A DNA stretch of 64,000 bases from Spirosoma validum (GTDB taxonomy: Bacteria; Bacteroidota; Bacteroidia; Cytophagales; Spirosomataceae), in the NCBI RefSeq assembly GCF_014699035.1, contig NZ_JACXAA010000010.1, positions 1 through 64,000 on the forward strand. Direction: 5' to 3'. Below, piece by piece: positions 2,242-23,933 of the stretch. The translations under genes were made by a program, and so were the position numbers. The notes below the pieces were generated by a model, which was not told where the DNA came from, did not search any database, and worked only from the letters and a program-made list of their open reading frames with translations. Every line of letters begins with the position of its first letter. Position 1 is the first letter of the stretch.

Positions 2242-2485
2242 GCAGCTTCTTTTTGCTAATAAACCGTTTTCCGATCGAACCTACTCTGACGTTTCTTAAC
2301 CAAGGGTAGTTTTGCCGAAACGGACGGGCTGCCCAAGCGGATAATTCGTTGTTGCGTCAGTAGTTTAAAAAGCCGTTGCAAGGATAAAGGGCTTTGTGGG
2401 ACGACCGCTATTCAGGCATGAGCAACTTTTGGTTCCCACTAATCTTAATTCTTGTGGTTTTGCCTCACAAAATCATTTCTTTCAT

Positions 2486-2530
2486 GGCTCAACGTTAAAT
2501 GAGCCGTACGGGCAAAATAGTTGAGCCGTA
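2486..2530 (+). promoter_or_regulatory. TGAGCC repeats upstream of aldo/keto reductase
   Basis: An inverted GGCTCAA (2486-2492) and two direct TGAGCCGTA copies (2500-2508 and 2522-2530, 22 bp apart) lie 41-85 bp upstream of the reductase start. Two direct repeats on one helix face are the usual architecture for AraC-type regulators, and an AraC gene is the next gene in the operon, so this is a candidate operator. The rest of 2242-2570 has a TAnnTTTG-like box at 2307-2314 and nothing else recognised. Confidence 0.4.
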
Positions 2531-2570
2531 GAAGAAACTAGTACGTGTTTTGACGGTTGACCTTTGTGAC

Positions 2571-3542
2571 ATGAAAAACAGCACAAAAATTCAGTTGGGT
2601 CAACATGGCCCGTTCGTGTCCAGGCTTGGTTTAGGCTGTATGCGTATGTCGTCTATCTGGGGCGGACCTACACCTGACGAAACAGAAAGTATGGCTACGA
2701 TCCACGAAGCCCTGGATAATGGGATCAATTTTTTGAATACCGGGGACTTTTACGGCGCCGGTCATAATGAACTACTGGTTGGCAAAGCCATTAAAGGAAG
2801 GCGCGACGATGCGTTCATCAGCGTAAAATTCGGTGCCATCTTTCACAACGGTCAGTGGTTGGGAATGGATTTGCGCCCCATCGCTATCAAGAATTTTATC
2901 AATTACTCGCTGACCCGGTTGGGTATTGAAACCATTGACCTCTACCAGCCTAGCCGAATGGATAACAGCGTACCAATAGAAGACATCATTGGCACGGTCG
3001 CCGACCTGATCAAAGAAGGCAAAGTGCGTCACATTGGCGTATCGGAAATTACGGCTGACCAACTTCGTAAAGCCAACGGCGTTCACCCCATAAGCGCGCT
3101 GGAGATTGGCTATTCGCTGGCCGACCGGCAAATAGAAAACGACCTGCTGCCAACAGCCAGGGAATTAGGCATTGCCGTCGTGGCCTTCGCCAATACGGCT
3201 GAAGGGTTATTGACCGGTGAACTGAACGCACCGCTCGCTGAAAACGATTACCGAAACCATTTCTCTCGTTTTCAAGGTGAAAACTTAGTGAGTAACCTGG
3301 AAAAAGTCGACGTCCTGAAGCAAGTAGCTAGCCATAAAGGGTATACGCCAACACAGGTGGCAATCGCCTGGGTAAAAGAGCAAGGCGATCAGATTATGCC
3401 GTTAGTCAGCATGAGTCGTCGGTCGCGCTTGCCCGAAAATATCGCAGCGATGGATATTATGTTTACGCCGGAAGAACTGAACACCCTGAACACTACGTTT
3501 GCCATAGGCGCAATACGTGGCGGCACTTACTTACAACGCTAA
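2571..3542 (+). CDS. Aldo/keto reductase
   Basis: 323-residue cytosolic NADPH-type oxidoreductase of the aldo/keto reductase (TIM-barrel) superfamily. Visible signatures are the N-terminal LGLGCMRMS strand, the catalytic-Tyr segment GDFYGAGHNE, the catalytic-Lys segment ISVKFG, and GVSEI after KVRHIG. The position that normally carries the catalytic His (LYYQHR in relatives) reads LYQPSR here, so the tetrad His is replaced by Ser; some AKR subfamilies share this. The ATG at 2571 is preferred over a TTG at 2550 because the AKR fold begins right after it. The stop codon is immediately followed by the ATG of an AraC regulator with no gap, so the two genes are probably co-transcribed and translationally coupled. 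Substrate unknown. Confidence 0.88.
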   Translation: MKNSTKIQLGQHGPFVSRLGLGCMRMSSIWGGPTPDETESMATIHEALDNGINFLNTGDFYGAGHNELLVGKAIKGRRDDAFISVKFGAIFHNGQWLGMDLRPIAIKNFINYSLTRLGIETIDLYQPSRMDNSVPIEDIIGTVADLIKEGKVRHIGVSEITADQLRKANGVHPISALEIGYSLADRQIENDLLPTARELGIAVVAFANTAEGLLTGELNAPLAENDYRNHFSRFQGENLVSNLEKVDVLKQVASHKGYTPTQVAIAWVKEQGDQIMPLVSMSRRSRLPENIAAMDIMFTPEELNTLNTTFAIGAIRGGTYLQR

Positions 3543-4400
3543 ATGACCAGTCCAGCAGAAATTCTCCCCGGCGTAATCTTCTATTCTTACCTCTCCGCTG
3601 AGCGGAAGGAAAAAGTATGTTTCTGGAATCACCATACTTTAATATTGCAGGTTTCAGGACAGTTTACCCTAGAAACCTCCGGGCAAACCATTTCGATGAC
3701 TGGGGGAGAAATGCTGCTGATCGGCCGAAACCAGGTGGGAACGCTCATCAAAACTCCGCTACCCGGAGCGAACTATGAGACAATCGTGATATCCCTGCAG
3801 GAAGACCTGTTGCGCAAGATCGTATTAGAAGAAAAGCTCGAAGCAGACCGGAAATACATTGGGCCACCAAATATCCTGATTCCTGCCAACGAATTCCTGC
3901 AGGGGTATTTTCAATCGATTGTTCCCTACGCCCGAAGCTCAGGAGCGACCATGACTGACGAAATGGGCATTCTAAAAGTGAAAGAAGGCGTTAAATTACT
4001 ACTCCTTGCTCTACCGGGACTTCGCAACTTCCTGTTCGACTTTTCAGAACCTCATAAGATCGACCTGGAAAAGTTCATGCTCAGTAACTATCATTTCAAC
4101 GTTCCCATTGAAAAATTCGCGCAGCTCACCGGCCGCAGTCTGGCCGCCTTCAAACGCGATTTCCTGAAAACATTCGGTGCTCCGCCCCGTCACTGGCTGC
4201 AGGACAAACGGCTGACCGAAGCCAAACACCTCATCGAAACGAAACATCAAAAACCCTCAGCTATTTACCTCGACCTGGGGTTTGAAAGCCTGTCGCACTT
4301 CTCCTATTCCTTCAAAAAGAAGTTTGGCATGGCGCCTACGGCACTGAATTATGGTCTTTCTCCAAAGAGATCTTTAGAAAATGTAGTAGGCGTCTCGTAA
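3543..4400 (+). CDS. AraC family transcriptional regulator
   Basis: 285 residues. The N-terminal ~150 residues look like a cupin-type sensing domain (ETSGQTISMTGGEMLLIGRN), of the kind seen in ExsA-like AraC proteins. The C-terminal ~100 residues carry two helix-turn-helix motifs: LTGRSLAAFKRDFLKTFG and the second with LGFESLSHFSYSFKKKFG, followed by the conserved PT. It starts directly on the stop of the aldo/keto reductase, so it probably regulates that gene, and the TGAGCC repeats at 2486-2530 are candidate binding sites. The effector cannot be told from sequence. Convergent with the Hsp70-like gene; 4401-4541 shows no further gene. Confidence 0.88.
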   Translation: MTSPAEILPGVIFYSYLSAERKEKVCFWNHHTLILQVSGQFTLETSGQTISMTGGEMLLIGRNQVGTLIKTPLPGANYETIVISLQEDLLRKIVLEEKLEADRKYIGPPNILIPANEFLQGYFQSIVPYARSSGATMTDEMGILKVKEGVKLLLLALPGLRNFLFDFSEPHKIDLEKFMLSNYHFNVPIEKFAQLTGRSLAAFKRDFLKTFGAPPRHWLQDKRLTEAKHLIETKHQKPSAIYLDLGFESLSHFSYSFKKKFGMAPTALNYGLSPKRSLENVVGVS

Positions 4401-4541
4401 AATGCCCCTGTAAACGATGGTCGCTGAACGTCTACTAATTGCGTTAATGCTAGTCCCGTTCTATCCGCTTCGGCGACCGGGTCCGTTTCTGCAAAACCAC
4501 CCATCTAAGACAATCAGATACTTATTTGACTCCGTCAGAAT

Positions 4542-5825
4542 CTAAACCTGACTCACTCGTTTGGTACGTTGTCCGAACTTATAATCGCTGTCGTACGCCA
4601 GACCCAGACCGACGCTGGAGAGCTTATTCTCATCGGCAATAGCGGCATTCGGGAAAAGGTTTTTGAAGGCCGTTTGTATAGACTGAACCTCGGTTGAACC
4701 GCCCGTGAGAATAACCAGATCAATGGCTTCGTTTCTAACCCCGGCTAATTGAAGACACTGTCTGGCCGAGGCTGCTATTTTTTCAACATCGTCTTCAATA
4801 GACTTTTCAAAAAGCTCCCGTTTGACGGGAATGAAAAAGCCATCCTCGATAAAATCAAACGTAGCATTATGCTCCGCCTGACTCGAAAGTGCGATTTTTG
4901 TTCCTTCAGCAGCGGCCAGCAGCGTGTGGCCGGTTTCGTCTTCAAGCACTTTCAACAGCCGACCGTACCGCTTTTTATCGTGCGATTGATGGAGTAATTG
5001 CCGGACCTGCATGATTATTTTGGGCGTATACAGAAAGTTGACTTTACTCCACTCCGCCAGATCGACATACGGTTTCAACGGAACTTCCAGATTTTTAGGG
5101 CCATACGTGCTTCGGAAACCCAGCTCGGGCATGATGGCCGCCAAACTTAACTCTTTATCAAAATCATTACCGCCAACCCGAATACCCGTATTGGCTAAAA
5201 TATCCGACGAACGATCCGGTTTGTGAACGTATTGATTCGATAACTTGATCACCGTAAAGTCGGACGTCCCTCCGCCCAGATCCGCTACAATCGCCAGTTT
5301 TTCGCCACTTATTCGGGCTTCATGCGCAAAGGCAGCCGCAATAGGTTCAAACTGAAACTCGATATGCTTAAATCCAATCCGTTGTGCAATGGCCAGTAAT
5401 TCCGCCTGTGCCCGAACATCAGCCTCCGGGTCGTTATCGACAAAATGAACGGGGCGACCCATAACAACATGGTCAATTTCCTGATTGGCTACCGCATCCG
5501 CTTTATCTTTGATGTGTTTCAGAAAGGAGCTAATGATGGTGGAAAAATTCATGGAAGCCCCGTTGACAAGCGTGCCCTGTTTCATCAGAGAGGTTCCCAG
5601 CACTCGCTTTAAGCTCCGCATAAATCGACCGTCCTGCCGATCGAAGAATAAACTAATGGCCGTTCTGCCGTAAAACGCTTTGTTATCGACACGCCTGAAG
5701 AAAAGAGCACTTGGAATCGTTACGTGCGCAGCTTCAACCGGCACAAGGCTAATCTGGCCATCGTTGGCAATAGCTACGCTTGAATTTGACGTACCAAAAT
5801 CGATTCCGCAGGAAATTAGTGCCAT
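4542..5825 (-). CDS. yegD: YegD-like Hsp70 family protein
   Basis: 427 residues of actin/Hsp70-type ATPase without the C-terminal substrate-binding domain of DnaK, as in Escherichia coli YegD (about 450 residues). Phosphate-1 motif GIDFGTSNSSVA is at the N-terminus, phosphate-2 motif VADLGGGTSDFTV is near residue 183, and the adenosine motif LTGGSTEVQ lies near residue 379. The insertion after FYGRTAISLFFDRQDGRFMR and the SLKRVLGTSLM segment are typical of the YegD branch. It probably is a cytosolic chaperone-like ATPase whose clients are unknown. Monocistronic by position, with a hairpin in its 5' region. Confidence 0.85.
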   Translation of the reverse strand: MALISCGIDFGTSNSSVAIANDGQISLVPVEAAHVTIPSALFFRRVDNKAFYGRTAISLFFDRQDGRFMRSLKRVLGTSLMKQGTLVNGASMNFSTIISSFLKHIKDKADAVANQEIDHVVMGRPVHFVDNDPEADVRAQAELLAIAQRIGFKHIEFQFEPIAAAFAHEARISGEKLAIVADLGGGTSDFTVIKLSNQYVHKPDRSSDILANTGIRVGGNDFDKELSLAAIMPELGFRSTYGPKNLEVPLKPYVDLAEWSKVNFLYTPKIIMQVRQLLHQSHDKKRYGRLLKVLEDETGHTLLAAAEGTKIALSSQAEHNATFDFIEDGFFIPVKRELFEKSIEDDVEKIAASARQCLQLAGVRNEAIDLVILTGGSTEVQSIQTAFKNLFPNAAIADENKLSSVGLGLAYDSDYKFGQRTKRVSQV

Positions 5826-21985: not shown

Positions 21986-21999
21986 AGGAAAGAAAAGGT

Positions 22000-22065
22000 T
22001 TTACAATTCCTTTACAAGGTTTTACAGGTCTTTACCTACTCTCGCTGAGGGCAATTATACATTTG
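22000..22065 (+). promoter_or_regulatory. Four phased TTTAC boxes and -7 promoter box
   Basis: TTTACA at 22000, 22011 and 22021 and TTTACC at 22031 lie 11, 10 and 10 bp apart, one helical turn each. A TACATTTG at 22058-22065 fits the Bacteroidota -7 box and predicts a transcript start near 22072, 21 bp before the first gene. OmpR/PhoB-type winged-helix regulators bind such 10-11-bp direct repeats, and one is encoded as the third gene of this operon. The boxes are also 15-51 bp from the divergent glycosidase start. Confidence 0.6.
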
Positions 22066-22092
22066 CTTCTGTATCACAAAAGAATCGAGACC

Positions 22093-22503
22093 ATGAAAAA
22101 CGTACTTCAATTAAGTGTCCTGTTTTTTTGCTGTGCCCTGTCAAACCTGTGCGCGGGTCAACATACGTTTACTACGTGCTCGGCGGCTTTTCTGAGGAAT
22201 AAAATGATCGTGAATGAGTACACCACAAAAGGTAAGTGCAGCGTAGCGACCAATGCTACCGGTAAATTGACGGTAAACATCGTCGAGTTGTCACCTGGCG
22301 AAAGTAAGGTAACAACTCGACTGCCCTTTACCGTGGCTATCCGGGATAAGAACACGAAAACGCTGACGATGTATTCCACGCAGTCCTGTAAGCAGCTACC
22401 GGTTCAGAACGTACTGTCGAGATGCCGGAAAGGGGATCATATTGTGCTGATCACAACGGATAATCAATATGCTTTACCACATAATGAAATTTTGGTACGT
22501 TGA
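22093..22503 (+). CDS. Small secreted protein, unknown function (paralogue A)
   Basis: 136 residues from the ATG at 22093, which opens a good signal peptide (MKNVLQLSVLFFCCALSNL, cleavage near AGQ). The mature protein is a small beta-rich domain with LPFTVAIRDKNTKTLTMYS, then VQNVLSRCRKGDHIVLITTDNQYALPHNEI. The product of the next gene shows the same order of motifs (PF-IYLRRSG...ATVLAQAQHGDELVI), so the two appear to be diverged paralogues. It begins an operon with paralogue B and a membrane-bound winged-helix regulator. I do not recognise the family with certainty; the pattern VLxxCxxGDxIVL is reminiscent of Ig-like domains in GldM-related proteins, but that is weak. Confidence 0.75.
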   Translation: MKNVLQLSVLFFCCALSNLCAGQHTFTTCSAAFLRNKMIVNEYTTKGKCSVATNATGKLTVNIVELSPGESKVTTRLPFTVAIRDKNTKTLTMYSTQSCKQLPVQNVLSRCRKGDHIVLITTDNQYALPHNEILVR

Positions 22504-22544
22504 GTCTGTTTCTGAATATTACCTGTCCTTAACACTCATCTCCT

Positions 22545-23015
22545 ATGCATAAGTACATAACCCGAACGTTGCTTGTTCTGCTGGCGACGTTATTGGCCAC
22601 CCAAGTGCTGTTGGCGCAAACGGTGCAGTTCGCTAGTTATCGTTTAGAAAATGAACCAGCTCGAGAACGTAATTTCTCACATAATCCATTAGTTTTAGAC
22701 GGTAATTCATTGGATTATACCTTTTTCTCTATCTTTAGTAAAGGTAGACTGGCGGTTGTTTCTGGAGAACCTGCATCAAAAGACGCCGTTAAAATCCCGT
22801 TTCGGATTTACCTTCGACGTAGTGGAATGATCATTCAGAAAGGAGCCTCCGACAATGGCCGACAGTACTATGATGTTGACATTGCTACGGTGTTGGCGCA
22901 GGCGCAGCATGGCGATGAATTAGTGATCGATCCGGTTTACAAAACCGACTGGGTAGCCCGGCGGATTCTGAGAGTGAGAAGCATGTTCTGGCTTTTTCCA
23001 CTTCCAGGGTGCTAG
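22545..23015 (+). CDS. Small secreted protein, unknown function (paralogue B)
   Basis: 156 residues with a signal peptide (TRTLLVLLATLLATQVLLAQ). The mature domain contains VKIPFRIYLRRSGMIIQKG and DIATVLAQAQHGDELVIDPVY, aligning in motif order with the gene 41 bp upstream. Unlike paralogue A it lacks the three Cys in the second half. It is followed after 21 bp by the regulator gene. A periplasmic ligand or partner of that regulator is a possible role, by inference only. Confidence 0.75.
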   Translation: MHKYITRTLLVLLATLLATQVLLAQTVQFASYRLENEPARERNFSHNPLVLDGNSLDYTFFSIFSKGRLAVVSGEPASKDAVKIPFRIYLRRSGMIIQKGASDNGRQYYDVDIATVLAQAQHGDELVIDPVYKTDWVARRILRVRSMFWLFPLPGC

Positions 23016-23036
23016 CCGGTAAAACGAACAATACGT

Positions 23037-23933
23037 ATGAGCAAATTGGCAAGAATATTCGGTATCACCGTGCTTGTATTAACCGGCATATTGTTCGCGC
23101 AGTTTGCTCCATTGCCGTTTGCTCATTCCACAACGGACACAACTCAGTTTTCCCGCAAAGTCAATCTGGCGCTCCGGCGAACGGCGCATCATCTACTACG
23201 TAATGCGGGTGATGATACGTCTCGAATTGCGCCTGTAAACCAACAGAATGCCTATACCTTCAGTGTGCAGTTGGATCGCCCGTTCGATTATAGTCAGTTG
23301 CCAGCCCTGCTTCAGGAATCGTTTCGGATTCATGAAATCAGGGCGAATTACGATGTTGCCGTGCTGGATTGCGCACATGGTGAATTGCAGTTAGGCTACA
23401 ATTTTCGGGATCTGACAGAAAACAAAGAGGTGCCCTGCGAGGGTCGAAAACAAGTCAACGGCTGCTACAAGCTGCAAGTCACCTTCGCTACGTCCGAAAC
23501 GGCTTCTCAACCACCCGTATTGGGATGGATACTGGCGCTGGGCGTGGTGATGACCGGATTTGGGTATGTTGTATGGCGTAAATCAGCTTCCACAAGCGCA
23601 TTAGGCAGTACGTCCGAATCAAATCAACAGGAATCCAGGCTGGTACGCTTTGGCGAGTCTAGCCTGGATTGTACAACACAAACATTGATATCGGGCGCGG
23701 CCCGCCATAACCTGACCTATCGGGAAGCGAAGTTGCTCCGGTATCTTATTGACCACGCCAACCAGGTTATTGAACGCGATCGCATTCTCAAATCCGTTTG
23801 GGAAGACGAGGGAATCTTCGTCGGCCGTAGCGTGGATGTGTTCGTGTCACGTCTGCGTAAACTGCTTCAGGCTGACCCAACAGTCCGCATTGTAGCGGTA
23901 CATGGCGTGGGCTACCGGCTGGAAGTTCAGTGA
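23037..23933 (+). CDS. Membrane-spanning one-component regulator with C-terminal winged helix
   Basis: 298 residues. An N-terminal hydrophobic segment (ARIFGITVLVLTGILFAQF) is followed by a periplasmic domain, about residues 30-165, with three Cys (LDCAHGEL, VPCEGRK, NGCYKL). A transmembrane helix at ~167-187 (LGWILALGVVMTGFGYVVW) leads to a cytoplasmic OmpR-type winged helix, residues ~210-298: LTYREAKLLRYLIDHANQVI, RDRILKSVWEDEG, GRSVDVFVSRLRKLL and VHGVGYRLE. The topology is the reverse of ToxR, whose winged helix is N-terminal. It is the third gene of an operon with two small secreted paralogues and probably controls the TTTAC-box promoter at 22000-22065. Its stop overlaps the convergent cytochrome gene by 7 bp. 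Confidence 0.85.
   Translation: MSKLARIFGITVLVLTGILFAQFAPLPFAHSTTDTTQFSRKVNLALRRTAHHLLRNAGDDTSRIAPVNQQNAYTFSVQLDRPFDYSQLPALLQESFRIHEIRANYDVAVLDCAHGELQLGYNFRDLTENKEVPCEGRKQVNGCYKLQVTFATSETASQPPVLGWILALGVVMTGFGYVVWRKSASTSALGSTSESNQQESRLVRFGESSLDCTTQTLISGAARHNLTYREAKLLRYLIDHANQVIERDRILKSVWEDEGIFVGRSVDVFVSRLRKLLQADPTVRIVAVHGVGYRLEVQ

Follow-up and report, generated by a model that had tools for sequence, protein, structure and literature searches.

The window analysed here, a stretch of 64,000 nucleotides of Spirosoma validum DNA, contains an operon of three genes, A, B and R, which lie on the same strand with 41 bases between A and B and 21 bases between B and R, and are preceded by an array of short direct repeats and a promoter element. 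The features are as follows.

22000..22035, + strand: likely operator, four phased TTTAC direct repeats starting at 22000, 22011, 22021 and 22031 (spacing 11, 10 and 10)
22058..22065, + strand: -7 promoter element TACATTTG (TAnnTTTG), 58 bases from the first TTTAC
22093..22503, + strand: gene A, 136 aa, with a signal peptide by eye and a predicted beta-rich fold
22545..23015, + strand: gene B, 156 aa, with a signal peptide by eye, a distant homologue of A
23007..23012, + strand: codons for the Gly-Cys with which B ends; nearly all B proteins keep this last Cys
23037..23933, + strand: regulator R, 298 aa, with a helix (3-23), a sensor (32-150), a second helix (162-184) and a winged helix (202-297)
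23640..23927, + strand: codons of the R winged-helix DNA-binding domain (residues 202-297)

A sequence-only reading of this DNA had placed the four TTTAC boxes and TACATTTG, and each is present exactly where that reading put it. The element TAnnTTTG, here TACATTTG, is known as the "-7 element"; it lies 27 bases after the last TTTAC (22031), which would put that box at about the position of a -33 element.

The same reading had noticed common motifs in the two exported proteins, and these are indeed present (PFTVAIR...VLSRCRKGDHIV in A and PFRIYLR...VLAQAQHGDELV in B); the paralogy proposed from them is borne out by alignment of the two profiles (hhalign probability 96.9, E 1.9e-10), and 77 ORFs are matched by both. 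No Pfam or NCBIfam family was found for either, in scans of the proteins themselves and of members of their alignments, and the beta-rich model of A (pLDDT 85.7) has no match in the PDB at E 0.001 or better. Both are confined to the window's family in a phylum-wide sample of 296 genomes, where A is found in three and B in two (three family genomes among the matches listed). A GldM-like fold, suspected from the GD-I/V motif of A and B, is unsupported by Pfam, by PDB sequences and by the 50 fold matches listed for A. We also note that one locus (L248) encodes a BlaR1/M56-type receptor with a B-like C-terminal domain (2375-5071, - strand), adjoined by a gene for a BlaI-type repressor (5131-5523, - strand).

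The model of R has a mean pLDDT of 86.4 and a pTM of 0.49, and the placing of its parts relative to one another is therefore uncertain. Pfam identifies Trans_reg_C alone (residues 225-295, E 4.2e-19), with neither a histidine kinase nor a receiver domain found, and the winged helix matches OmpR/PhoB-family DNA-binding domains with a Foldseek probability of 1.00. The topology first proposed for R stands as to its periplasmic sensor and its C-terminal OmpR-type winged helix, but not as to a single membrane helix, as there are two hydrophobic helices, the first of which (3-23) is an N-terminal anchor or signal peptide. A histidine kinase that aligns with R shows the same two-helix arrangement.

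The relationship to a two-component pair is seen within the genome of the window itself. The N-terminal part of R matches one of its kinases (28% identity, E 5e-5), and the best match there to the winged helix, besides R, is the response regulator beside that kinase (45% identity, E 5e-19). A profile of R, built from 130 R ORFs with one locus entered twice, aligns at positions 5-180 to kinase residues 9-182, with both helices included (41.9 bits), and at positions 204-293 to residues 132-221 of the response regulator, the two being encoded by neighbouring genes. The best NCBIfam model for this response regulator is RprY, with a score below the cut-off, and we call the kinase "RprX-like" as a label by partnership with the RprY-like regulator. 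As read from these alignments, R is the input half of the kinase and the output half of the response regulator in one chain. It thus resembles the RprX/RprY systems of the Bacteroidota, in that its sensor and both helices are like the kinase, and its winged helix like the response regulator, of the neighbouring gene pair just described, but differs in having neither kinase nor receiver, one protein doing both jobs.

In a phylum-wide sample of 282 genomes, 21 have R at E 1e-38 or better, 18 of them outside the window's family, and R is therefore either old or widely passed on. Three cysteines of the sensor are well conserved among 142 aligned proteins, Cys134 in all 142, Cys112 in 132 and Cys143 in 126; the kinase position that corresponds to Cys134 is a lysine. 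Two loci (L246 and L247) have R split over two reading frames, which is either a decaying gene or an assembly error, and the operator has an exact match in both of these genomes.

Comparison with other membrane regulators reveals partial similarities. R is like ToxR/CadC and VtrA/VtrC in being a membrane protein with an OmpR-type winged helix, a periplasmic sensor and small exported proteins encoded alongside (PMC9214523); however, ToxR/CadC-like proteins have an N-terminal cytoplasmic winged helix, one membrane helix and then a periplasmic domain, and both the model and the kinase alignment give R the reverse order. SusR of Bacteroides is described as a membrane protein with maltose as its periplasmic ligand and, like R, a DNA-binding domain at the C-terminus (PMC3878776); the repeats predicted as its sites are separated by 67 or 77 bp, whereas those of R are 10-11 bp apart and the R domain is of the OmpR type. 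PhoB has a winged-helix fold like that of R, its chains 1gxq and 1gxp being among the structural matches. In the pho box, direct repeats of about 11 bp stand in tandem and take the place of the upstream promoter element, and the R array likewise consists of such repeats in tandem; R differs from PhoB in being membrane-bound and without a receiver domain, and in having TTTAC(A) as its repeat. In the part of the literature searched we found no description of regulator R, of the TTTAC box or of the C-terminal tail discussed below.

We assembled 130 distinct R loci (from 131 rows, L015 and L187 being the same); six genomes with R lie outside this set (G077, G104, G110, G117, G163 and G194). By score and identity the R proteins were divided into a close group (about 46% identity or more) and a distant group (about 31-40%). 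The trio is conserved, as had been expected of it: A, B and R follow one another on one strand in 55 of the 130 loci, with variants containing both genes in three, A then R in two, B then R in 29, A divergent from R in 13, and R alone in 28. A or B, some of them as fragments, thus accompany R in 102 loci, and in at least seven (L107, L109, L110, L114, L115, L119 and L123) other genes intervene between B and R. Single-sequence searches of whole genomes show that A occurs without R in one of 80 genomes and B without R in two of 95, whereas 25 of the 133 genomes with R have neither A nor B; seven of these 25 are in the close group, one of which (G151) keeps a B-like fragment that is recognised by profile (L169). 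A and B depend on R, and not the reverse.

The box array is specific to this promoter within its own genome. The pattern TTTAC-N5/6-TTTAC-N5/6-TTTAC has two overlapping matches in the 8.2 Mb (39 contigs), both at the trio promoter, against one for the reversed control, and the consensus TTTTACAWTTCNTTTACAWNNTTTTAC at up to three mismatches matches the trio promoter and, apart from it, C34:317853 alone, the control giving none; that second site has TAGCTTTG at +58 and is followed by gene C. Chains of three or more TTTAC are present in 88 of the 130 R loci, with a mean of 0.0 in shuffled sequences (20 rounds, two-base blocks). Among the 96 close-R loci, TTTTACAWTTCNTTTACAWNNTTTTAC is found at up to three mismatches in 90, and exactly in 66 of these, counts that are not independent events because the genomes are related, and in which the consensus was itself derived from upstream regions of these same genomes; the independent part of the evidence lies in the -7 spacing, the controls and the genomes without R. 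Five of the six close-R loci that are without a site are cut loci, four of them having the site further upstream and the fifth having R at a contig end, leaving L154 (seven mismatches) as the sole genuine close-R locus with no recognisable site. The mean information content across 89 sequences is 1.66 bits in the box and 0.16 bits upstream of it.

The distance from the first TTTAC to the -7 box is almost fixed, the offset being +58 in 76 of the 90 close-R loci and +59 in a further 12, where mononucleotide shuffling predicts about 2.4 loci holding a -7 box at all. A fourth TTTA, at +31/32, occurs in no more than 29 of these 90 loci, so the last box corresponds only partly to a -33 position. Among 17 further arrays of at least three TTTAC from 16 loci (14 distant-R arrays within the family and three beyond it), the -7 box lies 26-27 bases after the last box in eight, and in another four when an additional, degenerate box is included; in the other five (L015, one of two in L204, L264, L268 and L269) the -7 box is not at that distance. 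A fixed distance from array to -7 box is as needed by an activator that contacts polymerase, and this spacing is the one basis on which we suggest that R activates rather than represses. The converse, a repressor R whose array acts as a roadblock across the promoter, seems unlikely to us; it gains something from P. gingivalis, where RprY is a repressor in its authors' working model, with nqrA and rprY among its promoter targets (PMC6032018), but the rigid spacing in 88 of 90 loci is unnecessary for a roadblock. The proposal that the divergent glycosidase is controlled jointly with the trio finds no support: the glycosidase family is not among the neighbour families that recur in at least four of the 130 R loci, and the -7 box at its fixed distance from the array sits on the side of the operon.

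The boxes go with R across the family. The consensus at up to two mismatches occurs in 115 of 200 family genomes (the reversed control gives one match), and these comprise 98 of the 100 genomes with a close R, 15 of the 33 with a distant R, and two of the 67 with no full R (Fisher p 2.5e-41 for close R versus no R). The two close-R genomes without a box are G029 and G145; of the two R-less genomes with one, the first has a contig ending inside the operon and the second a two-mismatch box before a lone B. This distribution agrees with the suggestion of the sequence-only reading that the boxes are the likely operator of the OmpR/PhoB-type winged helix of R. It could be supposed that the protein at the boxes is instead the RprY-like response regulator, or some other one of OmpR type, and that their link with R is indirect, as the DNA-binding domains of R and of the RprY-like regulator share 45% identity and the two may have similar sites. 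We consider this very improbable, since 12 genomes have no better match to R than E 1e-22 to 1e-25 (in G125 and G148, the two rows listed, covering the DNA-binding domain only), and 11 of these are without the box, while in the twelfth, G119, the end of a contig cuts the operon short.

The boxes are also found away from R, A and B. There are at least 68 such distant sites, and we analysed all 68 among the matches listed, taking the longest suitable ORF as the gene behind each and grouping the genes by single linkage; 62 of the 68 precede seven recurrent gene groups. Among these matches the largest groups are Reg_prop/YceI (23 sites, of which 20 have a profile match, L301, L317 and L325 being joined by linkage only), BNR-repeat 'DGGQTW' proteins (17) and gene C (seven), followed by beta-lactamase-fold serine hydrolases (five), MacB/FtsX permeases (four), FKBP (three) and trypsin-like proteins (three). 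A perfect TAnnTTTG stands at +58/59 in 44 of the 68 sites and at another offset in none, and is absent at that offset in the remaining 24. Five of the seven groups, Reg_prop/YceI, gene C, permease, trypsin-like and BNR (L262), are also beside R in other genomes, and the trio operons of L107, L119 and L132 include relatives of gene C; in one genome B is remote from R and is preceded by a box of its own.

Similar associations are seen beyond the family, where we inspected 12 of 20 R matches. R adjoins gene C in two of these, YceI in one, Reg_prop/YceI in one and a BNR-type gene in one (five of the 12), and four phased TTTAC are present in three of the 12 loci. Two loci outside the family (L264 and L268) have genes that by eye resemble beta-lactamase-fold serine hydrolases adjoining R, one of those in L268 being divergent and behind four phased TTTAC; genes of this type are also behind five distant boxes in the family, among the matches listed. 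The protease, FKBP and exporter families under the boxes suggest an envelope response, and the trio looks like the local face of an apparent membrane one-component regulon.

These data bear on the role of A and B. Because R occurs without either in 25 of 133 genomes, A and B are rarely found without R, and many other genes are preceded by this box, A and B look like outputs rather than obligatory ligands. The idea of a self-contained sensing module is thus not supported, and the module reading of the trio is correct only in part. A co-component arrangement like that of ToxR/ToxS, in which A, B or both bind the sensor of R and are needed for signalling or dampen it, would be compatible with a regulon, and there is some reason to entertain it, as one or other gene accompanies R in 102 of 130 loci, they hardly occur apart from R, and in one genome a B-like domain forms the C-terminus of the BlaR1/M56-type receptor beside a BlaI-type repressor. 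We nonetheless think it improbable: VtrA/VtrC and ToxR/ToxS have an obligate small partner encoded with the regulator, whereas for R, unless some other partner has gone unrecognised, no such requirement is seen: the 25 genomes with R and neither gene include seven in the close group, even though G151 keeps its B-like fragment, and the box stands before many unrelated genes.

We therefore favor the explanation, which we regard as probable, that R acts from the inner membrane as a one-component activator, that it governs an envelope regulon, and that A and B are among the outputs. By sequence, R is the input and membrane portion of a kinase of RprX type linked directly to an RprY-like DNA-binding domain, with neither kinase nor receiver. 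By the mechanism that we envisage, an extracytoplasmic condition, probably envelope or redox stress, would alter the sensor of R. Several winged helices would then line up head to tail, in the manner of PhoB, on TTTAC boxes 10 or 11 bp apart, and the array, at its fixed distance from the TAnnTTTG -7 box, would activate transcription. R would turn on its own operon, giving positive feedback, and the distant sites suggest that in many genomes it may also turn on scattered envelope and secreted proteins; A and B, judging from their distribution, would be products of the regulon and not required signalling partners. If this is correct, the same parts serve both a two-component system and a membrane receptor of the one-component kind; the DNA code (box, spacing and target groups) is readable from sequence in about a hundred genomes; the Bacteroidota gain an envelope regulon open to immediate testing; and a regulator is assigned to several families of unknown role, namely A, B, gene C, Reg_prop, BNR and the MacB-type permeases. 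The original observation at this locus is real, widely conserved and larger than was described.

Unexpectedly, many of the presumed products, above all three families unrelated to one another (B, gene C and the BNR proteins), share a C-terminal cysteine. All 81 complete B proteins beside R end in Cys, and 61 of the 78 with their last three residues listed end in Gly-Cys; gene C proteins are Cys-terminal in 12 of 12 cases beside R and seven of seven at distant sites, and BNR proteins in 17 of 17 at distant sites, the distant sites being those among the matches listed. In contrast, a terminal Cys is seen in none of 67 A, 127 R, 23 permease, eight trypsin-like and 12 YceI proteins, and in five of 34 Reg_prop proteins. 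B-type ORFs have it in 92 of 94 cases, the exceptions being the B domain fused to the BlaR1-type receptor and one ORF that runs past its Gly-Cys. Of 786 distinct ORFs of at least 150 aa in the fetched loci, a mechanical set that is by design rich in neighbours of R, 124 are Cys-terminal, 110 of them with Gly-Cys; 117 of the 124 belong to named families (B 69, gene C 23, BNR 19, Reg_prop five and YceI one), and of the remaining seven, six are beside R or behind a box and one (L100) is neither. Among the 45 window ORFs of at least 150 aa, B alone is Cys-terminal.

The likeliest explanation of the terminal Gly-Cys is a shared tether or recognition tag, and its common occurrence points to a tag or coupling chemistry that the searches made do not name: scans of six proteins (B, gene C, a BNR protein, two of TonB_C type and L271) with the NCBIfam models gave no C-terminal sorting domain at E 0.1. 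We propose tentatively, giving it somewhat less than even weight, that in B, gene C, BNR, some Reg_prop and TonB_C-type proteins Gly-Cys is an undescribed extracytoplasmic tag that couples to a common partner or machinery. That this partner is R itself, through the invariant Cys134, so that the products would dock by disulphide and shut the activator down, is a quite unlikely extension. The Gly-Cys Reg_prop proteins (L196, L199, L203, L205 and L249) are without an N-terminal lipobox, which is present in 29 of the 52 tail-less ones, a count on which we do not lean as the lipobox pattern is crude and also fires on A and R. Examples of the terminal Cys are found at 23007-23012 of the window, at 2418-3065 in L256 and 1057-2160 in L302, and in L199, L202, L231 and L313.
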